A program made the position numbers and the translations under genes. A stretch of DNA of 39,759 bases from a virus. Below are positions 2,727 to 33,925 of the stretch, one piece after another (position 1 is the stretch's first letter; every line of letters begins with the position of its first letter). The notes beneath the pieces were generated by a model, which made no database searches, was not told the DNA's origin, and saw only the letters and a program-made list of their open reading frames with translations. The stretch spans positions 1 to 39,759 of IMG/VR virus record IMGVR_UViG_3300028558_000057; one strand, 5' to 3'.

Positions 2727-2739
2727 AGTTTCGCTACTG
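2727..2739 (+). promoter_or_regulatory. class 1 motif (AGTTTCGCTACT-type)
   Basis: AGTTTCGCTACTG, one mismatch from the class 1 consensus. The first ATG after it (2750) is followed by a stop after three codons. The next real gene begins at 2792 with its own Shine-Dalgarno, so here the motif would give a leader of about 50 nt. Confidence 0.5.
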
Positions 2740-2791
2740 ATTCCTTCGAATGATCCTGTAGTCAACCGTCCGAATTTCGAAGGAGCAAATC

Positions 2792-3100
2792 ATGAGCGTA
2801 GAACACTCCGGAGTACCTCTCACTACCCGCGCCGACACTGTCAATAATATCCGATACACCCAAAACGGCTCGTCAAAGGACGATAGAGGAGGGGTTCATG
2901 CATGGGACCTCGCTAATCAGAATACGGTGGGACTTTTGGATGTCACGCTCTGCACCACCAAAGACGGGCTGGTCTACCTGGATATGAAGTCGGGCAAGGA
3001 CTGGGCATCAAAGACCGAGTTTTTGACTCTCGCCATGCCACGTCCGCAGATGGTGCTTTTCTTGCGCTATTTGACGGGATGCGCGGAGCTGCTTCCGTGA
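2792..3100 (+). CDS. hypothetical protein, first gene of the small-gene operon
   Basis: A 102-aa protein of unknown family. The central part (about residues 30-75) alternates hydrophobic and polar residues (TVGLLDVTLCTTKDGLVYLDMKSG), suggesting a small beta-rich domain. The start is fixed by a strong AAGGAG at 2780-2785. It follows a class 1 motif and the double terminator region, so it probably opens a new transcription unit. The gene after it overlaps its stop codon. Confidence 0.7.
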   Translation: MSVEHSGVPLTTRADTVNNIRYTQNGSSKDDRGGVHAWDLANQNTVGLLDVTLCTTKDGLVYLDMKSGKDWASKTEFLTLAMPRPQMVLFLRYLTGCAELLP

Positions 3101-3288
3101 CCTGCAAATATTGCCCCGAGACAGGCAATCACTACATGGGAGGTGACATGTGGGTTTGCTTCAAGCACTTCCTTGCCTGCTTTGGTTTCGTCAGCAAGGA
3201 GTCTCTCGGGGTCGTGTCCGAGATCTACAAGCAGGTCGAAAAGGCTCCTGTCGGCAAAACTCCCAAGCTCTCGATCAAGCGTCGCTGA
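3097..3288 (+). CDS. small CxxC protein
   Basis: A 63-aa protein from GTG 3097, which overlaps the previous stop as GTGA, the usual coupling here. An ATG at 3079 in the same frame would give 69 aa. It has CKYC near the N-terminus and CFKH about 25 residues later, a likely zinc-binding pair (C2-CH), then a short basic C-terminus. No family recognised. The stop codon is followed at once by a class 1 motif. Confidence 0.6.
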   Translation: MTCKYCPETGNHYMGGDMWVCFKHFLACFGFVSKESLGVVSEIYKQVEKAPVGKTPKLSIKRR

Positions 3289-3289
3289 C

Positions 3290-3300
3290 TTTCGCTACTA
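3290..3300 (+). promoter_or_regulatory. class 1 motif TTTCGCTACTA
   Basis: Exact 11-mer, 1 nt after a stop codon. No start codon lies at the usual 6-nt spacing. The next candidate starts are ATG 3338 and ATG 3425 in one frame. Confidence 0.5.
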
Positions 3301-3424
3301 CATCACTGCCAGAAGGACCGTTCGAGTCGGTAAGTTCATGCGGCTAAGGGCTCGCTACCCAGAGAGTGAAAGGCCGCCTCTGAACCAAAGTGTAGGGCTG
3401 CACGCTGGCCGATTTTTTGAAATC

Positions 3425-3805
3425 ATGGAAAACCAAAACACACCCGAAAGACAGCTCTCACAGGCACTCGATGAGCTGGTGGAGCGCAACCCCGGCTGCG
3501 AGCCTGGCCGTCACCTGCAGGAGCTGGTGGAGCGCTTCGACGATCGGGTCCGGCCGCACGCCTTCCGTGCGCTGAAGGACAAATTCCCGCCCGTGGAGGC
3601 CGGGCAGGTGCGTCGCTGGAGTGGGCTCAGGCCTACCCACCCACGCGCGGGCCTCGCCTTCGTCGTGGTGACCGTCAATGACCCGGAGGCACTGACGATC
3701 CATCCGGTGCGGTGCCAATACCTGGGCTACGCTGACCACAACGACCTGTCCTGGTGCCATTGGACTGAAGTCTTCCTGGACTCGGTACTTGTAGGTGAGT
3801 CATGA
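3425..3805 (+). CDS. hypothetical protein
   Basis: A 126-aa protein from ATG 3425. The same frame is open from ATG 3338 (155 aa), and neither start has a good Shine-Dalgarno. The N-terminal half is helical and charged (QLSQALDELVERNPG). The second half contains alternating hydrophobics (LAFVVVTVND) and an aromatic segment (DLSWCHWTEVFLD). No family recognised. It ends in a 4-nt ATGA overlap with the next gene. Confidence 0.6.
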   Translation: MENQNTPERQLSQALDELVERNPGCEPGRHLQELVERFDDRVRPHAFRALKDKFPPVEAGQVRRWSGLRPTHPRAGLAFVVVTVNDPEALTIHPVRCQYLGYADHNDLSWCHWTEVFLDSVLVGES

Positions 3806-4029
3806 GCGACCTCGAATCCGCCAAGGCCGAAGCGCCCCACGCAGACGGCCCCACCTACGACCAAATCGAGGCTATGGCCTGGAGTGTCGTGTGGGCCCGT
3901 CCGGAGGCTACAGAGAAAGAACACCTCGGCGCCCTCATGACCTTGAACAGCGGCAAGCTTCCGGTTGCTGCGCTCAAGGCGATCCGATGGGCACGAACCA
4001 ACTGCTACTACGCTGGCGAGAAGTCATGA
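3802..4029 (+). CDS. small hypothetical protein
   Basis: A 75-aa protein, coupled by ATGA overlaps at both ends. It is mostly helical (YDQIEAMAWSVVWARPEATEKEHLGALMTLN). No motif or family recognised. Frame and length are well supported by the tight overlaps. Confidence 0.65.
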   Translation: MSDLESAKAEAPHADGPTYDQIEAMAWSVVWARPEATEKEHLGALMTLNSGKLPVAALKAIRWARTNCYYAGEKS

Positions 4030-4289
4030 AGTGCCCGAGCTGCGGGTGGCCTGGTGCTTTCGTCGTAGTCGAGGCCGAGTGCTCCAACTTCAATTGCCCT
4101 AACTTCACTCGCGATCAGCTGGAGTCGCGGCTCCGACCCGAGTGGCTGGAGATTTACTACAGGTTCTTCCCGCCTACTGGGCTCGGCGATTCGTCGTGGG
4201 ACGCGACCGAGACCGAGTGGGAGACGATCGACTTCGTGCTGACCGGCAAGACGCCGGAAGAGAGGTCCGAGCGACCATGCACTGGATAG
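4026..4289 (+). CDS. zinc-ribbon protein, paralogue 1 of 3
   Basis: An 87-aa protein that opens with MKCPSCGWPGAFVVV, followed by ECSNFNCPNF. This is a four-Cys zinc ribbon (CPxC, about 15 residues, then CxxxxC) shared with the proteins at 4938 and 6517. The rest (about residues 35-87) is acidic and differs from the other two. ATG 4026 overlaps the previous stop as ATGA. The stop TAG at 4287-4289 runs into a class 1 motif. Confidence 0.65.
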   Translation: MKCPSCGWPGAFVVVEAECSNFNCPNFTRDQLESRLRPEWLEIYYRFFPPTGLGDSSWDATETEWETIDFVLTGKTPEERSERPCTG

Positions 4290-4300
4290 TTTCGCTACTA
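4290..4300 (+). promoter_or_regulatory. class 1 motif TTTCGCTACTA
   Basis: Exact copy directly after TAG. No clear gene follows before the terminator at 4334, so a transcript started here would be only about 70 nt. Confidence 0.5.
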
Positions 4301-4333
4301 CTTCATTGCTTGGAGGGGGAGCTTGGTGCCCCT

Positions 4334-4374
4334 AGCCCCGACCGGCTCCAGCCGGTCGGGGCTTTTTCTTTTTT
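4334..4374 (+). terminator. strong Rho-independent terminator
   Basis: A perfect 13-bp stem (4334-4346 with 4351-4363), a 4-nt loop and the tail TTTTTCTTTTTT. It ends the operon 2792-4289. The T-tract runs into the next class 1 motif. Confidence 0.9.
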
Positions 4375-4382
4375 CGCTACTA
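4372..4382 (+). promoter_or_regulatory. class 1 motif fused to a terminator
   Basis: TTTCGCTACTA begins inside the T-tract of the terminator. The hexamer TACTAG is 9 nt before ATG 4393, with a weak Shine-Dalgarno (TTGGA) between them. Its place right after a terminator argues for a promoter role. Confidence 0.6.
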
Positions 4383-4392
4383 GCTCTTTGGA

Positions 4393-4941
4393 ATGGCAAA
4401 GCACGAGTACAAGACGACACACGGGGCGCTTTATCAGGCACACGCTTGCGACCGCTACTTATGCGGCGACAACTGCAAGCAGCCTGACCAAGAGCCTGAT
4501 GATCCCATCCAGCCTGATGGACGCGGCTGGGAGCTGGTTAACACCTCGGCTTCGAGAGCACGCCTCTACTGGACCTGGAGACGGGCCCCTGAGGAAGTCC
4601 CGATGACCTCCACCCGCCTCTTCCCCGTCTTGTGGCAAGGCGACCGCGCCCGTAAAGCAGCTCTCGAAGCAGCCGGCTGCCCTCGCTACATCCCCTGGGC
4701 GTTCATCGCACGCTACGAAGACGGGTGCTTGTGGAATCACGACCAAACGGTCCAGCGCCTTTCCGAGCGTGGCGGCCTGGCTCCGGAAGAAATCCTCGCA
4801 GTCATCGCTTCTACCGAAAAAGGCGGGACTACCTACGAAATCCTCCACCAGCTCTGGGTCACCACTCCCGAGGAAACCACGAAGAAATTGCTCGCTCTGC
4901 TGGCTCTGTACGACCTGAGTTTCGCTACTACTTCGGTATGA
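4393..4941 (+). CDS. hypothetical protein with a possible internal start
   Basis: A 182-aa protein with two parts. Residues 1-70 have Cys19 and Cys24, Cys28 and a WELV...LYWTWRR segment, typical of short phage domains. Residues 71-182 are helical (about 135-175 especially). In-frame ATG 4603 (Met71) is preceded by an excellent Shine-Dalgarno (GAGGAAG, 4591-4597), so a separate 112-aa product is likely. The last codons read through the next class 1 motif (SFATT). ATGA overlap with the following gene. No function assigned. Confidence 0.6.
   Translation: MAKHEYKTTHGALYQAHACDRYLCGDNCKQPDQEPDDPIQPDGRGWELVNTSASRARLYWTWRRAPEEVPMTSTRLFPVLWQGDRARKAALEAAGCPRYIPWAFIARYEDGCLWNHDQTVQRLSERGGLAPEEILAVIASTEKGGTTYEILHQLWVTTPEETTKKLLALLALYDLSFATTSV
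4920..4930 (+). promoter_or_regulatory. class 1 motif, N6 spacing
   Basis: TTTCGCTACTA. Hexamer TACTAC (4926-4931) lies exactly 6 nt before ATG 4938. It is embedded in the end of the upstream gene. Confidence 0.65.
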
Positions 4942-6102: not shown

Positions 6103-6509
6103 TAGACGTATCGCTCTGCGACTCCTGCTTCAACGACGTAGTAGACGGGGAGCCTCTCTGCATCTCCTGCGAGCTGGACGACCAATCGGCAGGCTTGAGG
6201 ACCTTGGCGCAGTACAAGGGGTGCTCTCTAAATTGGCCCGGCAAGTTGGTGGTGTTCACCGAGCCTCCTCTGTTCAGTTGGCGCTTCTACTGCGTTCAGA
6301 TTGTCGTACCGATCCCGTTTAGTAGTCTGAGCCTTGAATCAGGGGACTTAATCCCCACCGTATGCGCTCGTAAGATTACTTTGGAGGGCAGAATGTGGAC
6401 GTCGAGAGCTGGTCGGTCCGTCTACGTCTATGCTCGAACAAACGCCTACTTCGCGCACTTCACACAAATGATGCGTGAGCTGGGGGTCGTTGGGAACTTT
6501 CGCTACTAG
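6099..6509 (+). CDS. hypothetical protein with N-terminal CxxC pair
   Basis: A 136-aa protein from GTG 6099 (GTGA overlap). CDSC at residues 7-10 and CISC at 21-24 make a likely N-terminal zinc site. The rest is beta-rich with many aromatics (LFSWRFYCVQIVVPIPF). The final codons, Phe-Arg-Tyr-stop, are themselves the class 1 motif TTTCGCTACTAG. No family recognised. Confidence 0.6.
   Translation: MIDVSLCDSCFNDVVDGEPLCISCELDDQSAGLRTLAQYKGCSLNWPGKLVVFTEPPLFSWRFYCVQIVVPIPFSSLSLESGDLIPTVCARKITLEGRMWTSRAGRSVYVYARTNAYFAHFTQMMRELGVVGNFRY
6498..6508 (+). promoter_or_regulatory. class 1 motif
   Basis: TTTCGCTACTA overlaps the stop codon of the upstream gene. Hexamer TACTAG lies 7 nt before ATG 6517, or 4 nt before the adjoining GTG 6514. 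Confidence 0.6.
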
Positions 6510-6516
6510 CTAGGTG

Positions 6517-6843
6517 ATGAACTGCCCGACCTGCAAGACTCCTGGAGCTTACGTCAGCGCCCTTTCAGTTGAGTGCTCCAACGCCAGCTGCAGACACTTC
6601 AAGGAGTCCACTACACCCCTCCTGACCGCCAAGGTGTTCGTGGGACAGAAGCGACGTTGGAAGTTGAACCGCCGCCCTTGGATCATAGGATACGGCTGGC
6701 CCGCAGACGAGTTCATCGTCAAGACAATCATAAATGACCAAGCCACTTGCGATGGCTCCTTCGGTCTCTTTGGTTACCCTCTGGGTAGTCCATACGAAGC
6801 GAAGCTGGATACGATCGAAATCGACTCCGACGTCATCCAATAG
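6517..6843 (+). CDS. zinc-ribbon protein, paralogue 3 of 3
   Basis: A 108-aa protein. MNCPTCKTPGAYV plus VECSNASCRHFK repeats the ribbon of the 4938 protein almost residue for residue. The C-terminal part begins VGQKRRWK. A similar GQRRRWK opens the protein at 7360, so these genes seem to shuffle small modules. GTG 6514 would add one Met. The class 1 motif just upstream supports the start. The stop TAG is again followed by a class 1 motif. Confidence 0.65.
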   Translation: MNCPTCKTPGAYVSALSVECSNASCRHFKESTTPLLTAKVFVGQKRRWKLNRRPWIIGYGWPADEFIVKTIINDQATCDGSFGLFGYPLGSPYEAKLDTIEIDSDVIQ

Positions 6844-6854
6844 TTTCGCTACTA
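6844..6854 (+). promoter_or_regulatory. class 1 motif
   Basis: Exact TTTCGCTACTA right after TAG. The first ATG (6860) opens only a 24-codon frame across two hairpins, so the likely target is the gene at 6956 with a leader of about 100 nt. Confidence 0.5.
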
Positions 6855-6870
6855 GATAAATGGTTGGGCA

Positions 6871-6890
6871 CCCGAGAGCATCGGGCTTTT
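6871..6890 (+). terminator. weak terminator or attenuator
   Basis: CCCGA (6871-6875) pairs with TCGGG (6881-6885), followed by CTTTT. A second hairpin, GGCAGAC/GTCTGCC, follows at 6898-6921. Both lie between a class 1 motif and the 6956 gene, so they may attenuate it. Confidence 0.4.
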
Positions 6891-6955: not shown

Positions 6956-7363
6956 ATGAAGAACGTCGTTGTAGAGCGTGACCAGATCTGGAGTTACTTT
7001 CGGTCCGTTTTGGTCGGTCAGACCCGAAAGGTGATGAGAGTCGAAGACGAATATGTCTACTGTGTCGACAGGAACGGAATCCCCGCCAACATGACGGTCG
7101 AGTTCCTTCTGGAGAATGCGACGCTCGTCTACGCTCCCCCTAAGCAGGAAGAAGAGCCCGAGGTGGACCACACCGACACTATCAACCGCCTTTCTGACAT
7201 GAAAGAGAAGCTGGAGTCGGAGGCGAGCCGCCAGCGCCCGTCTATCGGACCTTGGGGCTTTCTTAAATACGACTCCTGGGACGTGGCCTACAACAAAGAA
7301 CTCGACGCCAAGGCGCTGGAGATCGCAATCGCCGTTCTCAAGAGCAAGTCGGTGCCCGCATGA
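6956..7363 (+). CDS. hypothetical protein, small beta domain plus helical tail
   Basis: A 135-aa protein. Residues 1-55 (VVVERDQIWSYF...TRKVMRVEDEYVYCVD) resemble a short phage beta-barrel-type domain (GQxW...R.VRV). An acidic linker follows (QEEEPEVDH), then helices. AGGGAAG upstream of ATG 6956 is an acceptable Shine-Dalgarno. Coupled by ATGA to the next gene. Function unknown. Confidence 0.6.
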   Translation: MKNVVVERDQIWSYFRSVLVGQTRKVMRVEDEYVYCVDRNGIPANMTVEFLLENATLVYAPPKQEEEPEVDHTDTINRLSDMKEKLESEASRQRPSIGPWGFLKYDSWDVAYNKELDAKALEIAIAVLKSKSVPA

Positions 7364-7718: not shown

Positions 7719-7720
7719 TT

Positions 7721-7834: not shown

Positions 7835-7839
7835 CAATG

Positions 7840-7851
7840 ATAGTAGCGAAA
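7840..7851 (-). promoter_or_regulatory. class 1 motif, leftward
   Basis: On the minus strand it reads AAGTTTCGCTACTAT. TACTAT fits TANNNT. It lies between the integrase terminator and the two tiny minus-strand frames. Confidence 0.5.
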
Positions 7852-7852
7852 C

Positions 7853-7922
7853 TTGATGAAAAAGTCAAAACTAATCCCGCGCCAGCCTGCTCGCCCACCT
7901 GCCCTTCAGGATGGCGCGGGAT
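7853..7922 (-). terminator. terminator after the integrase, possibly bidirectional
   Basis: An 11-bp perfect inverted repeat (7874-7884 with 7912-7922, 27-nt loop). On the minus strand it is followed by a T-rich run ending TTTTT, placing it just after the integrase stop. On the plus strand the right arm is followed by ATCCTCTTTTTAA, so it could also stop rightward transcription from 7602. Confidence 0.6.
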
Positions 7923-9659: not shown

Positions 9660-9945
9660 GATCCTTACGTAGCGAAACTTTTCGAATCTCGACGAGCCCG
9701 GGACCGGCTTTGGAGGCTCTGCACTTACAAGGTGCGGGCGCCAGCTCCATTCTCCGATCGCGGTTCATGGCAGTCACGATGCTTTGTGCCACCTCGAAGT
9801 CCTCACACTCAGCGATGAACTTGTCGTGACAGTCTAGAATCACGTGGATCGTGCGCGAGATGTAGCCGCTGACCCTCGACTTGATCTGCCAAGGGAGACG
9901 CAAGGGGTTATTGGTCCCCGGCAAGGTCAGAGCGGCGTCAACCAC
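9652..9945 (-). CDS. small hypothetical protein
   Basis: A 97-aa protein from GTG 9945. The core (TIHVILDCHDKFIAECEDFEVAQSIVTAMNRD) reads as strand-strand-helix. The C-terminal KVSLRKDHE is encoded across the next class 1 motif. It starts 8 nt after the stop of the 53-aa gene upstream. No family recognised. Confidence 0.6.
   Translation of the reverse strand: MVDAALTLPGTNNPLRLPWQIKSRVSGYISRTIHVILDCHDKFIAECEDFEVAQSIVTAMNRDRRMELAPAPCKCRASKAGPGLVEIRKVSLRKDHE
9667..9677 (-). promoter_or_regulatory. class 1 motif variant, N6 spacing
   Basis: The minus strand reads AGTTTCGCTACGTA. Hexamer TACGTA lies exactly 6 nt before ATG 9659, and a Shine-Dalgarno (AAGGA) follows the motif. Confidence 0.6.
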
Positions 9946-10511: not shown

Positions 10512-10523
10512 CTAGTAGCGAAA
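10512..10523 (-). promoter_or_regulatory. class 1 motif, leftward, N6 spacing
   Basis: The minus strand reads AGTTTCGCTACTAG, then 6 nt, then ATG 10505. It sits back to back with the class 2 motif at 10533. Confidence 0.7.
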
Positions 10524-10532
10524 CTTCCGAGA

Positions 10533-10539
10533 CAATCTT
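10533..10539 (+). promoter_or_regulatory. class 2 motif CAATCTT, N6 spacing
   Basis: CAATCTT, 6 nt, GTG 10546. The whole divergent intergenic region is 40 bp and contains both start-associated motifs and little else. Confidence 0.7.
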
Positions 10540-13054: not shown

Positions 13055-13061
13055 CAATCTT
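13055..13061 (+). promoter_or_regulatory. class 2 motif CAATCTT, N6 spacing
   Basis: CCGCAATCTT, 6 nt, GTG 13068, in a 26-bp gap between the two baseplate genes. Confidence 0.7.
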
Positions 13062-19791: not shown

Positions 19792-19798
19792 CAATCTT
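19792..19798 (+). promoter_or_regulatory. class 2 motif, N6 spacing
   Basis: TAAGCCGCAATCTT (stop codon plus motif), 6 nt, GTG 19805. The same 14-mer recurs at 24780-24793. Confidence 0.75.
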
Positions 19799-20871: not shown

Positions 20872-23800
20872 ATGCCGACGTTCGTAGGAGCTGGTTTTGC
20901 CCTTGAATCTGTAACGCCTACCGGGTTAGCGACCCTGCGGGTGAAGTTCACCCAGGACCCCCGCAAGACGGATCCGACGTCTCCTGTAGATGGGACCAAT
21001 CCGTCGAACTACGCGATCAGTGGGCCGGCGTTCAATTACGTGACCAGCGTGGTTCCGGTCAGTGATGACACTGAATCAGTCGACGTGTTCCTCGTGGCAG
21101 CGTTGGCCGTCGGACAATGGACGCTCACCGTCAGCTCGATTCAGGCCGACACGGGCGAAGATCTGTCGTCACCGACCTCTCTGTCTTTCAACGTCGTTCT
21201 CACGCCCTCGCAGACACCAGTCACCGGTGGGGCTGTCAACGACAGCGTGTTCAATGTTCTGAGGCGTTTCCTAAATCCGACCCTGAAGGGCCCCGCATGG
21301 GACTCCACCCTCAAGGCCCTGGCTGCTGGCGACGAGATTAACTGGAACAATGCGAAACTAGCATTGGACCAGCTTTACCTATCTACGGCGTCTGGACCCT
21401 ATCTGGTTAAACGAGCAGGCGACCAGGGAATTCAGAAGCCTGTAGATGTTGAGATGTCTGACGACTTGTTCAGGCAGTTGGCTCTGATCCAGAAGAACAA
21501 GAAGCTGACCCAGGAGTCGCTCCTGGAAATCCTTGGCGTGTTTTATGGCCAGGACGCGGTTCGCGCATCTATCGATTCCGAAGTAGTCGAGCCGTTCCCT
21601 CTCGAAGACGGAGACGACCTACAGATACTTTTCGACGGGAAAGACACGCTTCTCGTCACATTCCAGCAGGATCAATTTGCTCGCATCGGCGAGGCTACGT
21701 GCGACGAAGTCGTAGCAGCAATCACCAGAGACCTGCACCTCACTGGAAGCCAGGCGTACGCCGCTACGGTCACGGATCCGATCACCAATGAGAAGGTCGT
21801 TCGAGTCTACAGCGGTAGGCTGGGGATTAGCTCAAGCGTCCAGATTATTGGCGGGCGTGGACAGACCAAGCTGCGCTTCCCGACATCCCTATATACAGAG
21901 ACGGGCGTCTCACCTTTCGCCATCTGGGACATGGACACGTCGCCTATCACGCCAGGAAACATCCGTTTCGTTCTTCTCTCCGGAATCTACGACCTGAATT
22001 TGTTGCAAGCAGGCGACCTCGTTTATATCTACGGATGTGGTGCGGTTACGGTTGGTAACACAAGGGGCGTCTTCGAGGTCCAGACAGTGTCGGTCTCCTA
22101 TGATGTCTTAGGGAACAAGGTCCAGTGGTTTGAGATAACAAATCCTGCTGGCACTCCTGCACTTGCTGTTGAGCAAACACTCTTCACGGACATCATGTTC
22201 TTTCGCCCGCTTCGCAGGACCGTCTACGACGCCCCTCGACACGTCGTCGTCGCCCAAACAGAGTCGGTCGTAGACATCGTTGTGGACGCCACCACCGAGG
22301 CGGTGAAGCGGGCTCCCGGGCAGGCTGCATACGCTCAAGAAGCCGATTCGATGACAGCTTCTCTTATCCGCGTAGGCACGACGGTGACTGCAACGTCAAC
22401 TGCGCACGGACTCCAAGTTGGAGACCGGGTGATTGTCGACGGAGCAGTGTCTACGGGTGCTCGTCCCGTCGTCACACCCGGCACCCCTAGTCCCGATTTC
22501 AGTTCTAACATTGCTACCGGAACGACGGACCTGAGCATAGCGTCGGACGCGAGTGCCGCAGGTACCTTTGAGGGCGGATACCATAAAGTAGTTCGCACCG
22601 CAGAGGGGTTTTTGATGACCATCGGTGGCTCCGACAATGGGTCGCCGATCACCCATCCTGTCCTGTTTGAAGTATTGGGAGAAACCGATGTCGGCGGACG
22701 TCAGCAAACGTACAAGTGGACTAATCTCACTACCATAACGTTCACAACGAAGCCCGTTGATGTCGGCGTGTCTGTTCTGAGTGACGGTCGAATACTTGCC
22801 ACAGGAGGCGCCAGTGACGCTACGTCAGGCGCATCTGAGACAAACGCGTGGGATCTTATCACATACACAAGATCTCCTCCCGTGACATCAAAAACTAGCG
22901 GGACGATGCCAACTGCCTTCGCGGACCACGGGCAAACCACACTGGGGGACGGTAGAGTGCTGGTCAGTGGTGGGTGGGCAGGGACTTTTGCAACCCCGGT
23001 CAACAACGCCTATACGTTCAGTCCCACCGCACTGACATGGACCAGCCGGGCCGCGATGGTACAAACGCGCAAGACCTTCAAATTGACGACCCTCGCCAAC
23101 GGGAACGCGATCGCGATTGGAGGCCTTACCGCAGCTGGGGCAGCTCTGAACACGTGTGAAATCTACGACCAGGTAGGGAACACCTGGTCCGCCACCGGTC
23201 CAATGACCTACGCCAGATACGCGTATGGCCGCATCACCCTGCCTGACGGTCGCATCGTGGTGGCTGGCGGTTACGGGTACAATCCGACGCAGTCAGCTAC
23301 GCCCGTGATCTTGAATACCTGTGAAATCTATGACCCACAGACCGGGTTCTGGCAGATGCTCCCTCCCATGACGGTAGCTAGGGAATACCCGAGCCTGCAT
23401 TATATCGCATCACGCAATGCTGTCGTCGTCACCGGCGGTTTGGGCGATACCGCAATCGAGAGCCTCTATCTGCCCACCATGAAATGGTCGGTCAGCGCAG
23501 CTGCTTTAACTAGTGGCTTTGGTCGTTCGGCGGCGGGCGTCGCTGGTATCGACACGATTCTAGTTTCGGGAGGAGTAAATAACGGAGGCACGTCGACAAA
23601 GAGCAACTTCGTCGTTCTGATGGGAGAAGAAACCTTCAGATCGGGAGGGTTCAATCGCGAGGTAGGTGTAACCTCCGTGCCTACGGCCAATACGTTCACA
23701 TTCGAAACTGACACGTCTGGATATAGCGTTGTCAGTGCCGCGACCATAACCCCTGTGGCTGCCCCGAGCGCTCCAGAGGGTGTGCCCGGTCCGTTTTCGT

Positions 23801-24339
23801 TTGACGTGAAGGAAGGGCTGGCGGCAACTGACGTGGAGTCCAGCGTGGTCGGAGAGCTGGTCGAAGGTCAGCGTTATCAGACGTTGACCTTGTCGGACGC
23901 ATCCGAATTCCCTGATGCGGTGGGGTACCTGGCCTTCAATTTTGGGTACGACGGCGTGGTCGGACCGGTGAAATACCTCGGCAAGCTGTCTTCTACGCAG
24001 CTGATTCTGGACGCCGGCTTCAAATTCACAAATACCGTTCAGGCCGGGTCCACAGTCACTCTGCTATCTGGACGCGCTCCTTTCGTCCCTCCTGCTGCCG
24101 ATAACGCCGGTGCATTCTACCTCACCGGTTCGGCAGCAGGTCGGATCGCAGCTCTGTCGATTATCGCCGATACCGTAGCCGCAGGCGTCCAGGTGTCGGA
24201 GACAATTAATTATCCTGGAGACAGAGGCCTTGGGAACGAAGGAAAGCCGGCGTCTGGGTCTGCCAAGCTGTCTGATGCAGTTTACGTCTGGGGCGGAGAC
24301 CGCCCTGACAGCGAGATCGACACCGCTCGATCCGAGTAA
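20872..24339 (+). CDS. large tail protein with Ig-like domain and Kelch repeats
   Basis: An 1155-aa protein. Residues 1-110 are an Ig-like domain related to the previous gene. Residues about 130-560 are unassigned, beta-rich. Residues about 560-925 carry a series of Kelch repeats (DGRVLVSGGW, NTCEIYDQVGNTW, DGRIVVAGGYG, NTCEIYDPQTGFW, VVVTGGLGD), enough for a full propeller. The rest is beta-rich. The repeats resemble those inside the J protein, suggesting duplication or exchange between two virion proteins. Shine-Dalgarno GGAGGG/AAGG upstream, gap of 3 nt. Confidence 0.75.
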   Translation: MPTFVGAGFALESVTPTGLATLRVKFTQDPRKTDPTSPVDGTNPSNYAISGPAFNYVTSVVPVSDDTESVDVFLVAALAVGQWTLTVSSIQADTGEDLSSPTSLSFNVVLTPSQTPVTGGAVNDSVFNVLRRFLNPTLKGPAWDSTLKALAAGDEINWNNAKLALDQLYLSTASGPYLVKRAGDQGIQKPVDVEMSDDLFRQLALIQKNKKLTQESLLEILGVFYGQDAVRASIDSEVVEPFPLEDGDDLQILFDGKDTLLVTFQQDQFARIGEATCDEVVAAITRDLHLTGSQAYAATVTDPITNEKVVRVYSGRLGISSSVQIIGGRGQTKLRFPTSLYTETGVSPFAIWDMDTSPITPGNIRFVLLSGIYDLNLLQAGDLVYIYGCGAVTVGNTRGVFEVQTVSVSYDVLGNKVQWFEITNPAGTPALAVEQTLFTDIMFFRPLRRTVYDAPRHVVVAQTESVVDIVVDATTEAVKRAPGQAAYAQEADSMTASLIRVGTTVTATSTAHGLQVGDRVIVDGAVSTGARPVVTPGTPSPDFSSNIATGTTDLSIASDASAAGTFEGGYHKVVRTAEGFLMTIGGSDNGSPITHPVLFEVLGETDVGGRQQTYKWTNLTTITFTTKPVDVGVSVLSDGRILATGGASDATSGASETNAWDLITYTRSPPVTSKTSGTMPTAFADHGQTTLGDGRVLVSGGWAGTFATPVNNAYTFSPTALTWTSRAAMVQTRKTFKLTTLANGNAIAIGGLTAAGAALNTCEIYDQVGNTWSATGPMTYARYAYGRITLPDGRIVVAGGYGYNPTQSATPVILNTCEIYDPQTGFWQMLPPMTVAREYPSLHYIASRNAVVVTGGLGDTAIESLYLPTMKWSVSAAALTSGFGRSAAGVAGIDTILVSGGVNNGGTSTKSNFVVLMGEETFRSGGFNREVGVTSVPTANTFTFETDTSGYSVVSAATITPVAAPSAPEGVPGPFSFDVKEGLAATDVESSVVGELVEGQRYQTLTLSDASEFPDAVGYLAFNFGYDGVVGPVKYLGKLSSTQLILDAGFKFTNTVQAGSTVTLLSGRAPFVPPAADNAGAFYLTGSAAGRIAALSIIADTVAAGVQVSETINYPGDRGLGNEGKPASGSAKLSDAVYVWGGDRPDSEIDTARSE

Positions 24340-24343
24340 GCGG

Positions 24344-24350
24344 CAATCTT
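24344..24350 (+). promoter_or_regulatory. class 2 motif, N6 spacing
   Basis: TAAGCGGCAATCTT, 6 nt, GTG 24357. One mismatch from the 14-mer at 19785 and 24780. Confidence 0.75.
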
Positions 24351-24786: not shown

Positions 24787-24793
24787 CAATCTT
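24787..24793 (+). promoter_or_regulatory. class 2 motif, atypical 9-nt spacing
   Basis: TAAGCCGCAATCTT identical to the 19785 copy, but ATG 24803 lies 9 nt after the hexamer. Confidence 0.65.
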
Positions 24794-27472: not shown

Positions 27473-27479
27473 CAATCTT
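27473..27479 (+). promoter_or_regulatory. class 2 motif, N6 spacing
   Basis: CTCAATCTT, 6 nt, GTG 27486. A GGAGG overlaps the spacer but is too close to the GTG to act as a normal Shine-Dalgarno. Confidence 0.65.
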
Positions 27480-27485: not shown

Positions 27486-27956
27486 GTGACTCCAGAAGAA
27501 CTAATTTCTCACTGCCGATCGTTTCTGTTTGTCCGAGAGGTTGCGCCCAACTCCTCGCCGGAGATCGACGGCTGGCTGAAGCGAAACGGGTGCACTCCAG
27601 GGTGTTCGTGGTGCGCAGCTTACGCCTGCTGCATGGTCTTTGACCTGGACCCGCACACGGCGCTCAAGGCTTCCGCAAGTGCTCTACACCTTTTGTCGGA
27701 GAACCAGCACCTCGTTGTTCCGTTTGAGGAGGTTCAGCCTGGTGACGTTTTAATCGAGGATCACGGTGGCGGGCTTGGCCACGTCTCGATCGTCACTGAC
27801 GTTGTTCGGGTAGACGGCAAGGTCGCCGGGTTGTCTACGATTGCAGGGAACACCTCGGCCGACGGTCACTCTCGAAACGGAGACCGTGTGGCAGAGCACC
27901 CCCACGACCTGCCAGATCCGAGGATCGCGGGCGTCTTGAGAGTCTGCCAAACCTAA
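27486..27956 (+). CDS. CHAP-type peptidoglycan hydrolase (endolysin or virion lysin)
   Basis: A 156-aa single-domain protein with the CHAP/NlpC-P60-like catalytic layout. Cys43 sits in CSWCAAY, His99 in GGGLGHVSIVTD, and a polar third residue, Asn122, in IAGNTS. PGDVLI precedes the His, as is typical of CHAP domains. It would cut peptide bonds in peptidoglycan. No cell-wall-binding domain or signal peptide is visible, so it needs a holin or acts from the virion. Located after the fibre genes and before a membrane protein on the other strand (28228-28575). GTG start fixed by the class 2 motif. Confidence 0.8.
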   Translation: MTPEELISHCRSFLFVREVAPNSSPEIDGWLKRNGCTPGCSWCAAYACCMVFDLDPHTALKASASALHLLSENQHLVVPFEEVQPGDVLIEDHGGGLGHVSIVTDVVRVDGKVAGLSTIAGNTSADGHSRNGDRVAEHPHDLPDPRIAGVLRVCQT

Positions 27957-27960
27957 TCTT
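27954..27960 (+). promoter_or_regulatory. class 2 motif variant TAATCTT, N6 spacing
   Basis: The previous stop TAA is part of the motif. 6 nt separate it from ATG 27967. Confidence 0.6.
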
Positions 27961-28576: not shown

Positions 28577-29854
28577 CTACTTACGTAGCGAAACTACCGG
28601 CTCTTGTAGATATATATAGGAACACGCGGTCCTGGCCCGAGTCACGGCGGTGTACAAGAATCTCTTCCTCTCGATGCCCTTCATACTCGACAGGCTGTCT
28701 TCGATTACGACCAGGACCTTCTCAAACTCCGAGCCCTGGCTCTTATGGACCGTGAGCGCGTAGCCGTAGTTGGCGTGCACGTACGGAGGCGCTTCGTCGT
28801 CACCGTAGCGCGCGATCCTCTCAAAGGCCTTCTTGGCGGCCCTACGAAACGCCCAGAGCCCAACATTGGAGCCGATCGTACGTCCACAGATTTCGTCAGG
28901 AGACAACATCACCAGAGAATTGCCGCCGAACGATCCGTCGACATGGCCGACGCCAAACTTCATTTGGATGGAGGACGTCGTGTAGCGGTCCGTGACGGTC
29001 TGTAACAGCTCGGGAGGGGTGTCCCAGCCGTGAAAGTCTAGAACTTCGCCGTTGTAGCAGTCGAGGGAGTAATTGTTCTGCAGCACGAGGAGAGGCTCTC
29101 CTGACTGCAGAGTGCCGTGCTCATACTTCTTCGCGGTACGAACCTTGTTGTTCAGGTCATGTCGTCGGGCGTTGGTGTGGCAGACGACGGCTCCGTTGGC
29201 GCTGAAGTCGAGCAGAGATTCGGTCAGCTGACTCTCACCGATGGCGTCGAGCAGACCCATGGCCTCGAACTCGGGCTTGTTCGAACGAAGGAGCATGGAA
29301 GCTCGGATGATGGGGCTGTCGAGAGCCTGGCGGTGAACCTCGGTGAGGTTGATGGAGTAGGGCGTCGGCGTGTTCAGGGAGTTGAAACCCTCGTCCTCTT
29401 TGCTCTTGGTCACTGGGGGGAGCTGGAACCGATCGCCGACGAGGAGAATCTTGAAGCCCAATGTCTTCGACATGGCGTTCAGGTCGATCCAGACATCTTT
29501 GCTAACCATCGACGACTCATCGATCAAAACGAGTCTGTCTTGCAGGAAGCTCAGCTCCCACACGTCCTTGAGAATGAAGATAGGGGCACCGGTTCTGGGG
29601 TCCACTTCCGCCTTGTAGAAAGCACGGTGTATCGTACCAGCTGGTAGCCCCGTAACTTCATGAACCCGAAGGGCCGCTTTGCCTGTCGGAGTTAGAACCT
29701 CGGGCGTGCCGTAGGTCGTGGCAATAACTTTAATGAGCGTGCTTTTGCCGGTGCCGGCATACCCAGTCATTATCGCGATTCTCTGGTCGGCGTCTTTCAG
29801 GAACACGCCGATCATGTCAAGAGCTTGTTGCTGCCCAGTTGACAGAGTCAGCAT
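28577..29854 (-). CDS. SF1B DNA helicase, Dda/RecD-like
   Basis: A 425-aa helicase that unwinds DNA with ATP during replication or recombination. Motifs in order: Walker A GYAGTGKST (31-39), Walker B LVLIDESS (108-115), motif III GDRFQLPPV (140-148), a C-terminal TVHKSQGSEF motif (about 375-384) and YTAVTRAR (about 402-409). The length matches T4 Dda and short RecD2-like phage helicases. ATG 29854 overlaps the HNH gene's end by 7 nt. The 3' end codes across a class 1 motif (VVSLRK). Part of the leftward replication block. Confidence 0.92.
   Translation of the reverse strand: MLTLSTGQQQALDMIGVFLKDADQRIAIMTGYAGTGKSTLIKVIATTYGTPEVLTPTGKAALRVHEVTGLPAGTIHRAFYKAEVDPRTGAPIFILKDVWELSFLQDRLVLIDESSMVSKDVWIDLNAMSKTLGFKILLVGDRFQLPPVTKSKEDEGFNSLNTPTPYSINLTEVHRQALDSPIIRASMLLRSNKPEFEAMGLLDAIGESQLTESLLDFSANGAVVCHTNARRHDLNNKVRTAKKYEHGTLQSGEPLLVLQNNYSLDCYNGEVLDFHGWDTPPELLQTVTDRYTTSSIQMKFGVGHVDGSFGGNSLVMLSPDEICGRTIGSNVGLWAFRRAAKKAFERIARYGDDEAPPYVHANYGYALTVHKSQGSEFEKVLVVIEDSLSSMKGIERKRFLYTAVTRARTACSYIYLQEPVVSLRK
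28583..28593 (-). promoter_or_regulatory. class 1 motif variant, N6 spacing
   Basis: The minus strand reads AGTTTCGCTACGTA, 6 nt, ATG 28575. It lies inside the last codons of the helicase gene. Confidence 0.65.
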
Positions 29855-30387
29855 CTCGACAACTCTCCCGGGAAATTTAGATAGGCGAAGTCTCGTCCAA
29901 AGTGTTCGACGGCAACTCGATCGTAGGCCCTAGCTGCTTCGTCCTTGTCGGCAAAGGAACCAATGTGAAACGGCTTCCGGTCAATTCCTATCTGTGCTCT
30001 CCAGTTGTCGTTGTCCTTGTCCAAATAAACGCCTCGGTATCCGGACTTATTGGTCTTCTTAGGTCCCGTGTTACCTGTGTTTTCAAGAGCTGTGGCGGCT
30101 CGCAAGTTGCGGCGTGTGCAATCCAGACCAAAACGGTTGCGATGATCGACATGCTCAGAAATGTCAAGACCCATACGGCGTGCCACGAAGCGGTGCAGTA
30201 GCAGGCTGGTCCATCCTTCACCGCGACGAACAGCAGCATGCGCATATGCCGTCTTACTCGACTTAGGGATAAGTAAACGCCAACGGAGTGAAGACGCTGC
30301 CTGTAGATCCACCGAGTCCAGCCACGCTATCCCTCGCTCGTTTACGAGCGGTAATGGCATGGCGTCTAGGCTGATGTCGGCGCTCAC
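29848..30387 (-). CDS. HNH-AP2 homing endonuclease 1
   Basis: A 179-aa protein. HNH domain at about 60-105 (LLLHRFVARRMG, HVDHRNRFGLDC, NLRAAT, EN), with Asp81-His82 and Asn94 as core residues. C-terminal AP2-type DNA-binding domain at 115-173 (SGYRGVYLDKDNDNWRAQIG...GSFADKDEAARAYDRVAVEHFG). Free-standing HNH-AP2 nucleases are common mobile genes in phages. GTG 30387 (GTGA overlap) is preferred to ATG 30414, which would overlap the upstream gene by 31 nt. It sits between the nucleotidase and helicase genes. Confidence 0.88.
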   Translation of the reverse strand: MSADISLDAMPLPLVNERGIAWLDSVDLQAASSLRWRLLIPKSSKTAYAHAAVRRGEGWTSLLLHRFVARRMGLDISEHVDHRNRFGLDCTRRNLRAATALENTGNTGPKKTNKSGYRGVYLDKDNDNWRAQIGIDRKPFHIGSFADKDEAARAYDRVAVEHFGRDFAYLNFPGELSRC

Positions 30388-30950
30388 TGAACGCCGTTCA
30401 TGATCACATCCCAAGCCCTCTTGGGATTGCTCCAGTCATCCGCCAGGAAGGTGAAAACCGCACCGGCTGTCTCGTTGTAAGGAAAACGGATCCCAGTGGT
30501 AATAGCCGCTGGGTGAGCCATCCTGTACGCGAGGGCGTTGCTGGGCGAGTCGTCGATCAACACATCGGCAGGAATGATGTGCTTCTCGTGTGCGATGACG
30601 AGCTGGCGCTTGGTGAGAAAGGGCAAGTGCTGCTGACACCACTCTGCTTTTTCGCTCAGGTTGACCGGACTGTGTGCGGCTGTGACGATGTAAAGCTCGT
30701 GTCCGAGGTCGAACAACGTCTTCACTCCTTCGACGGCTCCTTCGTACGGAAGGAGGTTCCGAACCAATCCGGGCCTGCTCAGGTAGTCGTAGATGGCAAC
30801 GCCGCCCTGAGCACAGAGGTGCAAATCCCAATGGGTGATATCGGCGACCGTCAGCTGGTCGGGCCAATCGGCGTTGTAAAGCGTCAGCCAGGGCGTCAGG
30901 AGGTCTGCTACTGTACTGTCTAGATCTATCAAAATGCGCTTGCGCTTCAT
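30384..30950 (-). CDS. HAD-family 5'(3')-deoxyribonucleotidase-like phosphatase
   Basis: A 188-aa protein. HAD motif I DLDST (Asp9, Asp11), motif II in IVTAAHS, and motif IV in DVLIDDSPSN. It resembles phage and bacterial NT5C-like nucleotidases that remove phosphate from dNMPs. Its neighbours (helicase, primase, recombinase) fit a nucleotide-metabolism role. ATG 30950 is used; a TTG 4 codons upstream is inside the class 1 motif. GTGA overlap downstream. Confidence 0.85.
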   Translation of the reverse strand: MKRKRILIDLDSTVADLLTPWLTLYNADWPDQLTVADITHWDLHLCAQGGVAIYDYLSRPGLVRNLLPYEGAVEGVKTLFDLGHELYIVTAAHSPVNLSEKAEWCQQHLPFLTKRQLVIAHEKHIIPADVLIDDSPSNALAYRMAHPAAITTGIRFPYNETAGAVFTFLADDWSNPKRAWDVIMNGVQ

Positions 30951-30960
30951 CCTGAAGATC

Positions 30961-30971
30961 AAGTAGCGAAA
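30961..30971 (-). promoter_or_regulatory. class 1 motif, 9-nt spacing
   Basis: The minus strand reads TAGTTTCGCTACTTG, where TAG is the deformylase stop. Hexamer TACTTG is 9 nt before ATG 30950, with AGG next to the start. Confidence 0.6.
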
Positions 30972-31487
30972 CTATCGTGCTCGACGCGCCTCCCTAAGAG
31001 CCTTTGCGACCTTTCTCTTGATGATGTCTTTTTTCACCCGTCCGAATCGGTCAACGAACATAACCCCATCCAGGTGGTCGATCTCGTGGGCTACGCACTG
31101 AGCTTCGACGTCGTCGAGCTGACGAAGCTCATCCTCACCCTCGACGCTCTTCGAGCTGACGATGATTTCGTTGAACCGATCGACGGTCTCGAACACGCCG
31201 GGAACCGACAGGCAGCCCTCTGCGAAGGGCACCGGGGTCCCGAAAGTCGACATGACTACGGGGTTCACGTAGGTGTGCTTCTCCCCATAAATGTTCGTAA
31301 CGAAGACGCGGTAAGGAATGCCGACTTGGATTGCCGACAGACCTAGGCCCCCAGCGTGCTCCAGCGTTTCGTGAAGGTCACTGACGACGACCTGGAGGGC
31401 AGCGGTGCCAAAATCCTCTACGGGCACGTCCTTCGACGGCGTAGAAAGCTTGGCGCTAGGCCAGATGAGGATTGGGCGGACGCTCAT
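30972..31487 (-). CDS. def: peptide deformylase
   Basis: A 171-aa enzyme removing the N-formyl group from new proteins. All three signature motifs are present: GLGLSAIQVG (47-56), EGCLSVP (90-96, metal ligand Cys92) and CVAHEIDHLDG (131-141, metal-binding His134 and His138, catalytic Glu135). Normal length for the family, so probably active. Phage deformylases are known from marine and other phages. ATG 31487 follows a class 1 motif by 7 nt, with a GAGGG in between. Confidence 0.93.
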   Translation of the reverse strand: MSVRPILIWPSAKLSTPSKDVPVEDFGTAALQVVVSDLHETLEHAGGLGLSAIQVGIPYRVFVTNIYGEKHTYVNPVVMSTFGTPVPFAEGCLSVPGVFETVDRFNEIIVSSKSVEGEDELRQLDDVEAQCVAHEIDHLDGVMFVDRFGRVKKDIIKRKVAKALREARRAR

Positions 31488-31494
31488 ACCCTCT

Positions 31495-31506
31495 TAAGTA
31501 GCGAAA
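31495..31506 (-). promoter_or_regulatory. class 1 motif, 7-nt spacing
   Basis: The minus strand reads TTTCGCTACTTA, then AGAGGGT and ATG 31487. Confidence 0.6.
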
Positions 31507-31509
31507 AAA

Positions 31510-31851
31510 TCAGTCGCTATTCTTGTCGAAGAGCGACTCACCAGACTCGTCAGTATCGACTAAGGGGATCGACAGACTGTCGGATCCGGTGGTGGTCCTA
31601 CAAATGAAGCAGTAAATCTCGCGAGCAACCGACAGCTGATCCTTAGCCCTAAACCAGCGCGCCGACCGAATGTCATCGATTTCGGCCGCACTACCAGCAG
31701 CTTCCAGTCGCAGCTGAAGGGCCACTAGATCTGACGAGATTGTGCAAGCTTCCACGGAAAGTGTTTGTAGACATTTGGCTACAATCTCTCCGACCCTGGT
31801 TTTTATGGCCTCTAGCTGTTCTGATTCAGAAAGTGTCGCTTTTTGTCCCAT
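31510..31851 (-). CDS. hypothetical helical protein
   Basis: A 113-aa protein, largely helical (SESEQLEAIKTRVGEIVAKCLQTL, ISSDLVALQLRLEAAG), with a CFIC pair near residue 82. ATG 31851 has GGGGG at a good distance. ATG 31866 in the same frame is possible. Unknown function. About 85 nt upstream of it (31867-31951) hold no gene. Confidence 0.55.
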   Translation of the reverse strand: MGQKATLSESEQLEAIKTRVGEIVAKCLQTLSVEACTISSDLVALQLRLEAAGSAAEIDDIRSARWFRAKDQLSVAREIYCFICRTTTGSDSLSIPLVDTDESGESLFDKNSD

Positions 31852-31951
31852 GGTTACCCCCAACATCCCGAGGCGCGACAGCTGGTGTTGTACGTTTTGT
31901 CTTCTATCGCACCCGTGACCTATAAGGGTAAACCACTACAGAATGTTTCGT

Positions 31952-32164
31952 CTAGGTTAAAAGCTCCAAGATCGCCGATTCTACAGTTTCTTGCCAATCT
32001 GCCGACAAAGGACTCTCGCCTTCAATCGTTTTGCTATTAGCATTAAATGTTAGCCAAATAAGCTCATCCGGAAGGATTACACGAACCCTAAGTAAGCCGG
32101 GAACGGAACTATCCCAAATCGTGACGTGACACACGTCACGCAATGGTCTCGGACGTCGTCCCAC
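31952..32164 (-). CDS. small hypothetical protein
   Basis: A 70-aa protein from GTG 32164. Beta-rich first half (CHVTIWDSS, LLRVRVILPDELIWLTFNANS) and a short C-terminal helix. The start lies 3 nt after the upstream stop, with GAAG as Shine-Dalgarno. No family recognised. Confidence 0.55.
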   Translation of the reverse strand: MGRRPRPLRDVCHVTIWDSSVPGLLRVRVILPDELIWLTFNANSKTIEGESPLSADWQETVESAILELLT

Positions 32165-32167
32165 TTT

Positions 32168-32458
32168 CTACTCTTCGAGAAGGGTGACGGTGATGGTGAG
32201 TCGGCCGCATTTGCCGACAAAGGGTAGAAAAGCATCCTCGACAAGGTTCCTGCAGGTCTGGCGCTCGCCACCGTCACCGGGTGCTCGTAGGTGCTCATTG
32301 TCGCTCTCGCACTGATCGACCACCAGTCTACCGAAGTGGTCATTCCGAATGTGTCCTGACAGAGAGAAGGTCTTCGTCATACCGTCTTCGTAGCGAATCT
32401 CGGGCGTGTAAACGAGGATCCGAGAGCCTCCGACAAAGAGTGTCTGCAAAACTTCCAT
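32168..32458 (-). CDS. small hypothetical protein
   Basis: A 96-aa protein. Alternating hydrophobic strands (EVLQTLFVGGSRILVYTPEI, GRLTITVTLLEE). The gap to the upstream gene is 2 nt. It resembles its operon neighbour 32461-32703 in ending with a short strand rich in Thr/Val, but there is no clear homology. Unknown function. Confidence 0.6.
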   Translation of the reverse strand: MEVLQTLFVGGSRILVYTPEIRYEDGMTKTFSLSGHIRNDHFGRLVVDQCESDNEHLRAPGDGGERQTCRNLVEDAFLPFVGKCGRLTITVTLLEE

Positions 32459-32460
32459 GT

Positions 32461-32703
32461 CTACGGATACTCAGTCACAGCAACAAGGACAGCTGACCAG
32501 CACTCACCAGTATGGCTAACCTTCATGGTCTCGAAAGGAGACAGGCCACAATTGAGTAGGGTCGGCTGAAAAAGAAGCGCTTGGAGAAAAGGGAACTGTC
32601 GCGCATCCGCCGAGGGCCCGGGCTCTGAAGGAACATCGCTGATAGTGACCGTCCATCGCCACCGACGCTCATCGACTTGCACCTTGGTGATGTTCTTGTT
32701 CAT
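32461..32703 (-). CDS. small hypothetical protein
   Basis: An 80-aa protein. ITKVQVDERRWRWTVTI at the start and WSAVLVAVTEYP at the end suggest a small beta domain. ATGA overlap with the CYTH gene upstream, so likely co-translated. Unknown function. Confidence 0.6.
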   Translation of the reverse strand: MNKNITKVQVDERRWRWTVTISDVPSEPGPSADARQFPFLQALLFQPTLLNCGLSPFETMKVSHTGECWSAVLVAVTEYP

Positions 32704-33338
32704 CCGCGCGCCTTCTTGAGGAACCTTGGCTTCTTAGCGACCTTGTAACGACGGTCGGAGTAGATCTCCAACAAGGAGAGGGTCAGTGGGGTGCCTAGGT
32801 TGAACGCGACCTCAAGCCTCGTTCTCCACTCCTCTAGAAGCAAGCGAGCATCCTCGTCTGAACAGTTGGAGCCCTTAACGATCTCCACCTCCAAGAAGTA
32901 TCGCAATCCTTCACACCGCCGTGTTTTCTCGTTCAGTTTCTCGACACCATATAAAGCCACGCACGTTCCGATCCTATCGTTCTCAAACATAAAAACGTCG
33001 CAGCGGTCTTTAAATAGTGTAAAAAACCTCTTCCATCCGCTGAGTCGGAGGAACTCGGTTATATCGGTGGTTGTTAGTGACTCGGGAAAGGTGAGATCGA
33101 CCTCAAATCGGTCTGTGATATGACGTGAAGACTTCCTTTGTTTGCACGTCAACTCGCCCGCTCCACCGCTCCACCGATGTCTCACAATATTATCGCCCTG
33201 ACTATAATAAACGTCAGGACACGAGGTGCGCGAGTATGAAACAGGAGACTGCCTTTGGCACCAAAGACCAAAGGCTTCAGGACTTATATGGTCTGCAGAC
33301 CATTTATATTCTATTTCAGAATGAGCCGAGGTCTTCAT
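32700..33338 (-). CDS. CYTH-domain triphosphate tunnel protein
   Basis: A 212-aa protein. EIEYK at residues 8-12 is the ExExK signature of the CYTH superfamily (CyaB adenylate cyclase, thiamine triphosphatase). Further elements in the right order: a basic strand NIVRHRW (about 50-56), LTCKQR, EVDL, a KDR basic patch (about 111-113) and a late FLEVEI acidic strand (about 148-153). These residues line the triphosphate tunnel and bind metal. The substrate cannot be read from sequence; an inorganic or nucleoside triphosphatase is most likely. ATGA overlaps on both sides. Confidence 0.75.
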   Translation of the reverse strand: MKTSAHSEIEYKWSADHISPEAFGLWCQRQSPVSYSRTSCPDVYYSQGDNIVRHRWSGGAGELTCKQRKSSRHITDRFEVDLTFPESLTTTDITEFLRLSGWKRFFTLFKDRCDVFMFENDRIGTCVALYGVEKLNEKTRRCEGLRYFLEVEIVKGSNCSDEDARLLLEEWRTRLEVAFNLGTPLTLSLLEIYSDRRYKVAKKPRFLKKARG

Positions 33339-33907
33339 CGCGAGACTCCGACCGTATCGTTTGTTACAGCAAATGCGCCATGGTATCGCAAAGCAGCTGC
33401 GTCTCGAAGGGCTCCCGCCTCCTCCTTTGTGTCGCAGTACCCCAAACTGATCCCGCGCCGCTCTCCTTCCGCGGTCACTTGAATTTGAGCGTGAAACTTT
33501 CCAATTCTCTTGTGGAAAGTAACTCCAATGAACCCGCTCGTATTGTTCCTTTGCTTCTGTCGATTTCTGGAATTGTCTCCACTACTTGCGGGACGCAGGT
33601 TGTCTTCCGAATTATTCAAAGGTTGCCCATCTAGATGGTCAAGGCCTTTGCCACGTTCTAACACCTTGCCAGCAAGGGCCCAGACGAAAATATGAAGAAG
33701 AACCGTTCTTTGGCCACCGTCATCCTTAGGCATATTTGTTCTAACGGCAAACTGTCGCCCAGCGGCTCTTTGTTTATTCCGGCTCACATACCAGACGTGT
33801 TGCTCGATTGATTCTCTGAAACGAGCTGGAGCAGTGACCGTAAACTGTCCGTATTTCGGACTTACGATCTGAAATGTAAAGGTCTCGCTATGAGGATCTG
33901 TTCCCAC
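33335..33907 (-). CDS. HNH-AP2 homing endonuclease 2
   Basis: A 190-aa protein. HNH core at about 70-115 (LHIFVWALAG, GLDHLDGQPLNNSEDNLRPASSGDNSRN), with Asp90-His91 and Asn103. AP2-type domain at about 124-185 (SGFIGVTFHKRIGKFHAQI...). Same architecture as the 29848 gene but quite diverged. GTG 33907 is 6 nt after the class 1 hexamer TACTAG, with no good Shine-Dalgarno. It heads a chain of overlapping genes down to the CYTH operon. Confidence 0.85.
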   Translation of the reverse strand: MGTDPHSETFTFQIVSPKYGQFTVTAPARFRESIEQHVWYVSRNKQRAAGRQFAVRTNMPKDDGGQRTVLLHIFVWALAGKVLERGKGLDHLDGQPLNNSEDNLRPASSGDNSRNRQKQRNNTSGFIGVTFHKRIGKFHAQIQVTAEGERRGISLGYCDTKEEAGALRDAAALRYHGAFAVTNDTVGVSR

Positions 33908-33914
33908 CTCATGC

Positions 33915-33925
33915 TAGTAGCGAAA
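33915..33925 (-). promoter_or_regulatory. class 1 motif, N6 spacing
   Basis: The minus strand reads AGTTTCGCTACTAG, 6 nt, GTG 33907. Confidence 0.65.

Follow-up and report, generated by a model that had tools for sequence, protein, structure and literature searches.

The 39,759-nt viral sequence IMGVR_UViG_3300028558_000057 (the window, by which we mean the whole stretch analyzed) raises the question of what function is served by a 13-letter sequence that recurs ahead of its replication, nucleotide-metabolism, chaperone, endonuclease and small genes. The initial annotation had noticed about 14 directional copies and likened them to the start-associated sequences (SAS) and stoperators of mycobacteriophages. 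We argue here that this element, designated class A, together with a second element preceding structural genes, class B (CGCAATCTT), very probably constitutes a two-class system of promoters that lack a -35 element and are largely leaderless, the RNA often starting on the start codon itself. All 14 copies are indeed present on the strands first assigned to them, at or within 2-3 nt of the positions given, and the 9-mer TTTCGCTAC contained in the 13 letters has 16 exact matches in the window: these 14 and two intragenic ones (17268+ and 34122-), which are probably chance copies. With one mismatch allowed, 22 matches are found in the window, against 7.1 expected from shuffled sequences.

The window is part of a larger genome. 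An exact motif scan of IMG/VR returned 72 stretches, mostly single chance matches, and three that fell on one contig revealed the adjoining contig, IMGVR_UViG_3300028558_000027 (67,419 b). The last 24 nt of the window (39736-39759) are identical to the first 24 nt of this neighbor, which holds the sigma-factor gene discussed below; an SSB-like reading frame spans the junction, and the gene order RecA-like, small gene, SSB, small gene, PolIII is common to the joined contigs and to Myxococcus phage Mx1, which has a genome of 169.6 kb. Because of the end overlap, the spanning frame and the Mx1 gene order, the two contigs are neighboring pieces of one Mx1-like genome of 107 kb, named J; on the same grounds the second contig was rejected as an independent relative and, being part of J, left out of the independent evidence. 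Large relatives measure 160-182 kb, so that J is incomplete, with about one third of the genome missing. Identity to Mx1 is 49% for GroEL and 42% for the sigma factor, and a near-DNA search against named phages gave no match. Mx1 was the first Myxococcus phage isolated and can be propagated on laboratory strains of Myxococcus xanthus; 187 of its 250 genes are without homology to characterized proteins, and its genome announcement does not describe promoters (PMC10720576).

Motifs, register, gene classes, conservation and sigma homology were all computed from these sequences and their relatives. The genome-wide scan with distance to starts that had been proposed as a check makes TTTCGCTAC the most over-represented 9-mer in J, with 31 copies against 0.78 expected under a third-order Markov model; only four of the 31 are intragenic, though predicted genes cover 86% of the sequence. 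Read backwards, the 9-mer has no match in either the window or the next contig. The earlier observation that a TACTAN or TACGTA hexamer ends exactly 6 nt before the start codons at 4938, 9659, 10505, 28575 and 33907 is correct, and over J this exact spacing is found in 10 of the 31 copies (binomial P = 5e-13). Class A (AGTTTCGC-TACTAN) is most likely a promoter without a -35 element, with CGC at -15 to -13 and a TA-starting hexamer at -12 to -7, and RNA would start about 7 nt downstream of the hexamer. For roughly one third to one half of the copies in most genomes, the predicted RNA start coincides with the first base of the start codon, which would yield a leaderless mRNA, and the remaining copies would give rise to a short leader, often with a Shine-Dalgarno (SD) sequence.

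The distribution of SD sequences bears directly on this proposal, since fixed RNA starts predict that transcripts without a leader lack an SD and that those with a leader carry one. When class A lies 15-19 nt away, only 6 of 118 starts are preceded by an SD; at 25-94 nt the figure is 33 of 52 (P = 6e-16). The same switch is seen in class B between short and long spacing (2 of 90 versus 63 of 131, P = 9e-16). Depletion at short spacing is partly automatic, the motif occupying the place of the SD, but the rise at long spacing is not. These data also bear on the possibility that class A acts at the level of translation, as an element of the mRNA just upstream of the start, in the manner of the SAS of cluster K mycobacteriophages. 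The motif is strongly tied to start codons and to the sense strand, as would suit such a role, and cluster K SAS are likewise 13-nt asymmetric repeats near non-structural start codons, present in 11-19 copies per genome (PMC3203893). Yet class A shows no SD complementarity, the SD adjoins the start in its stead at long spacing, some copies precede no gene (4288+) or precede a leader, and the aligned, putatively late class B keeps the same register with a different sequence. We therefore regard a translational element as very improbable. The SAS consensus, GGGATAGGAGCCC, contains GGAG, is located 3-7 bp from the start codon and is thought to act in translation (PMC3203893); class A is devoid of GGAG and promoter-like. 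Given its different sequence, the lack of an SD core and the separate SD at long spacing, class A is, by these sequence features, not an SAS. Of the likeness first drawn to SAS and stoperators, the association with starts and the orientation stand; identity with SAS does not, for want of a ribosome-binding core.

The information in class A is limited to about 14 positions, from -20 to -7, with little at -35. Host sigma-70 sites would carry a -35 TTGACA at 16-18 nt, and the only window copy with a -35 is that at 7851-, which has TTGACT and is also the sole copy to resemble a sigma-70 promoter. Sigma-70-like promoters are at background level (2-5 per genome) in J and in three relatives described below (G002, G004 and G009), in contrast to Mx1 (41) and the related genomes G007 (25) and G008 (22), where they are frequent. 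Within the hexamer, T-12 and A-11 are invariant in all five genomes profiled, while T-7 is not conserved. Class A also directly follows a terminator or hairpin at 4370+ and 7851-; this argument rests on single sites, since upstream hairpins and stable folds, as a class, are not enriched over background. Several further observations weigh against the promoter interpretation. The T typical of a -10 element at -7 is absent from class A, where G is usual, and the third base of the hexamer differs by genome (C, T or G). About 12 of 37 TTCGCTAC copies in J have no start within 40 nt. In one relative (G005) the spacing is loose and sigma-70-like promoters persist (22), so that this genome holds both kinds. 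Lastly, the sigma gene is also found in relatives without class A.

Relatives were gathered with a terminase profile, which yielded 62 IMG/VR loci, and whole contigs of several were searched de novo; no terminase relative was found in GTDB genomes. Class A is restricted to one clade (tree support 1.0) of six related phages (J, G002, G004, G005, G006 and G009), each with its own version, among them GTTCGCTATAG, ATTCGCTAT and GATTCGATAGA. The de novo equivalents are GTTCGCTATA in G002 (35 copies) and G009 (55 copies), ATTCGCTAT in G004 (42 copies) and in the 38-kb G006 (6 copies), and ATTCGATAG in G005 (27 copies). While the letters vary, the register is constant in five of the six members, J included: TTCGC most often lies 17 nt ahead of the start codon, which places the end of the TA-starting hexamer 6 nt from it. 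Positional enrichment blind to the motif recovered the same register. Exact spacing is found in 18 of 36, 23 of 49 and 26 of 57 copies in three relatives, with P values over J and these three ranging from 5e-13 to 1e-35. All six members retain a class A element at GroEL, and five have one ahead of the helicase-sigma operon. The notion that class A recurs by chance, or is a selfish repeat propagated through recombination, can be given almost no credence: a homing-type HNH/AP2 gene (start 33907) does have the motif upstream, but only about 14 positions are conserved between unrelated flanks, distant relatives keep the place and change the letters, and the conserved placement at GroEL in six genomes contradicts it.

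A more serious contender is that a prophage repressor uses the class A sites as its operators, dispersed, asymmetric and one-directional like stoperators, which would silence the lysogen and possibly overlap a -10 element. Tyrosine integrases are found in all five large motif-bearing genomes and in none of the other genomes searched, and the motif, with some 30-57 asymmetric, directional copies per genome, differs in sequence among relatives as stoperators do (PMC6550527). Integrase and motif nonetheless go with a single clade and thus represent one co-occurrence, which is why we have marked down this line of support. A fixed spacing to start codons and the SD switch between short and long spacing are promoter behavior, and with sigma-70-like promoters at background in four clade members, no promoter signal other than class A is seen for these genes. 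A search of the joined contigs for an HTH_3 repressor gave no match, though these contigs miss about one third of the genome by comparison with relatives. Given the fixed spacing and the lack of a repressor candidate in these contigs, we favor promoters and consider repressor sites as such unlikely; an operator overlapping a class A promoter is possible. The stoperators of cluster A mycobacteriophages are also asymmetric, directional, dispersed, different among relatives and carried by temperate phages, but they are repressor sites, and a fixed spacing to start codons is not reported for them in the parts of the sources available (PMC6550527, PMC9283540).

The promoter reading of class A is complemented by the second class. 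CGCAATCTT ranks second among independent over-represented motifs in J (16 copies versus 0.89 expected) and precedes baseplate, tail, prohead-protease and other structural genes. Both classes share one register in J, with CGC at -15 to -13 and the hexamer (TACTAN or AATCTT) at -12 to -7, and at its -10-type positions class B has A at -12, A at -11 and T at -7. Exact spacing is seen in 6 of 16 copies in J (P = 9e-9) and in 11 of 26 copies of the shorter core CAATCTT. Class B is family-wide, with the variants CAATCAT (G002, G009) and CAATCTA (G014, G003), and in most of 11 genomes the baseplate gene W19 is preceded by an element whose register is exact or nearly so.

A plausible reader for such elements is encoded by the phage itself. 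The sigma factor (G22; 345 aa, bases 23123-24160 of IMGVR_UViG_3300028558_000027) has an ortholog in all 13 genomes compared; that of Mx1 is WNM70309. Alone it has no Pfam match; within its family, 11 of 25 members match Sigma70_r2 and 18 the PHROG sigma family. The family profile matches RpoD in the PDB (E = 1e-9) with an alignment that ends near E. coli residue 565, and for an AlphaFold model (pLDDT 83) all top PDB matches are sigma factors, including sigmaA chains. In sigma factors, the helix-turn-helix of region 4.2 reads the -35 element. Since the RpoD alignment ends before this region, the phage protein appears to be a divergent sigma factor without region 4.2 and would thus be without a -35 reader, which fits promoters without a -35, as in T4 (PMC7892883). 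Both the sigma factor and class B are family-wide, and class B is hence the most likely target of an RNA polymerase carrying this sigma. On the other hand, the presence of the gene in class A-less relatives means that sigma alone does not explain class A. Proteins found only in the clade (small, membrane, nuclease and homing types, besides the integrase) were considered as class A readers, none of them convincingly, and the conserved protein encoded at 34907-36001, alone on its strand and proposed by eye as a second sigma factor, has no family match. A search for a single-subunit, T7-type RNA polymerase gave no match, but its control was also silent, so that absence is not shown. Taken as a mechanism, class A would drive non-structural genes, including the helicase-sigma operon, and class B structural genes; because class A precedes that operon in five of six clade members, a cascade from class A to sigma to class B can be envisaged. 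From these arrangements we infer where RNA starts, which class is early or middle and which late, and which factor pairs with which class.

Among known systems, the arrangement would work like the late promoters of T4, with a -10-like element and a reduced sigma, and, where leaderless, like the predicted leaderless promoters of cluster O mycobacteriophages (PMC4351075). Late promoters of T4, read by gp55 with gp33/gp45 (PMC7892883), resemble class B in having a -10-like element only, no -35 conservation and late genes downstream (predicted, in the case of class B), and in being accompanied by a divergent sigma-70 relative without the -35-reading domain, as the RpoD alignment indicates here; the sequence, however, is CGCAATCTT, the transcripts are predicted to be mostly leaderless, and the sigma retains more than region 2. 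Phages AR9 and phiKZ also have two promoter classes, first defined by over-representation (PMC5312081), and a conserved element whose end lies 6 nt upstream of the RNA start (AR9 early, AAATATATATTAT-6N-G; PMC5312081), a start that is predicted in our case, but they use their own multisubunit polymerases, and AR9 leaders span 26-491 nt (PMC5312081). In the leaderless SigA-like promoters of cluster O mycobacteriophages the predicted RNA start is likewise the first base of the start codon (PMC4351075); those are few sites of host SigA type, whereas here there are tens of near-identical copies without a -35.

The individual class A sites illustrate both configurations. On the plus strand, AGTTTCGCTACTG (2727..2739) is separated by a leader of about 45 nt from gene 2792-3100, whose ATG is preceded by AAGGAG, and ACTTTCGCTACTA (3288..3300), overlapping the stop codon of 3079-3288, reappears at 6496..6508 ahead of the ATG at 6517. 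AGTTTCGCTACTA (4288..4300) overlaps a TAG stop and is followed, with no gene between, by an intrinsic terminator (4334..4363, plus strand; 13-bp stem and T run); with this strong terminator within 35 nt, an RNA of about 60 nt would result. Directly downstream of it lies TTTTTCGCTACTA (4370..4382), with 21 nt from TTTCGC to the ATG of 4393-4941. The site at 4918..4930 is at exact spacing to the ATG at 4938, and that at 6842..6854 overlaps a TAG stop and is followed by a 24-codon open reading frame and gene 6956-7363. On the minus strand, the 7851- site (7841..7853), where TTGACT lies 17 nt ahead of TACTAT (7868-7840), follows a hairpin that is itself downstream of the integrase gene. Exact spacing is found at 9667..9679 (ATG 9659, a 173-aa gene beside the integrase), 10513..10525 (ATG 10505, divergent from a class B element), 28583..28595 (AGTTTCGCTACGT, ATG 28575), 33915..33927 (GTG 33907, an HNH/AP2 endonuclease) and at the variant AGATTCGCTACGA (32388..32400), ahead of an internal ATG at 32381, where the near-copy ATTCGCTACGA (32398-) had been absent from the earlier list. 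Sites at 30961..30973 and 31496..31508 lie 21 nt from the ATG of an NT5C-like deoxynucleotidase (30950) and 19 nt from that of a peptide deformylase (31487). The overlap with a preceding TAG or TGA stop noted at the outset is real at 2727, 3288, 4288, 4918, 6842, 28595 and 30973.

Class B sites in the window lie at exact spacing on the plus strand at 10533..10539 (CAATCTT, 13 nt to the GTG at 10546 of a baseplate gene), 13055..13061 (CGCAATCTT, GTG 13068, baseplate J/kelch protein), 19792..19798 (GTG 19805), 24344..24350 (GTG 24357), 27473..27479 (GTG 27486, the position of the Mx1 endolysin gene) and 27954..27960 (variant TAATCTT, ATG 27967), and on the minus strand at 34535..34541 (CGCAATCTT, ATG 34528); the plus-strand site at 24787..24793 is 16 nt from the ATG at 24803.

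Other features of these genomes deserve mention. The window has two HNH/AP2 homing-type endonuclease genes (29848-30414 and 33335-33907), with a class A element before the second, and a long, structured-looking leader with repeated TAGGGGTTTTGNAAGG (34600-34906) before the isolated plus-strand gene 34907-36001. In the neighboring contig, the DNA polymerase III alpha gene (L073:1458-6560) carries an in-frame intein, with a Hint/intein-splicing match and a weak LAGLIDADG match. In many early promoters of Mx1 (L080, 86001-128000) the stretch from TTGAC to the -10 includes GCGGATCT or the complementary sequence; the motif has 31 copies in the Mx1 genome, against 3.4 expected, and is possibly an operator. 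A 121-kb contig of locus L105 (L191-L197) holds 39 copies of TGCCAATCTG/CAGATTGGCA, against 0.6 expected, away from start codons. In GTDB, seven sigma relatives (L225-L231) are found in contigs binned as Deltaproteobacteria, Saccharibacteria, Saprospiraceae and Elusimicrobia metagenome-assembled genomes, which are probably phage contigs.

More generally, we tentatively put forward the notion that, within one phage family, the host-type early promoters seen in relatives have given way in the integrase-bearing clade to tens of clade-specific, leaderless promoters without a -35, the letters drifting while the register stayed constant. Such a process would imply a specificity factor encoded by the phage and evolving along with its sites, or else a repressor for which the promoter is itself the recognition site; a single factor could in that case turn all non-structural genes on or off together. 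The promoter reading as such provides a predicted transcription map, readable from sequence alone, for a large and almost unstudied phage family, and two promoter classes together with a sigma gene make for a testable cascade. The clade also offers a natural series in which promoter letters have changed in at least four ways, useful for following how a factor and dozens of its sites change together, and, if the transcripts are leaderless as predicted, it would provide many leaderless genes outside the bacteria in which leaderless translation has been best studied.

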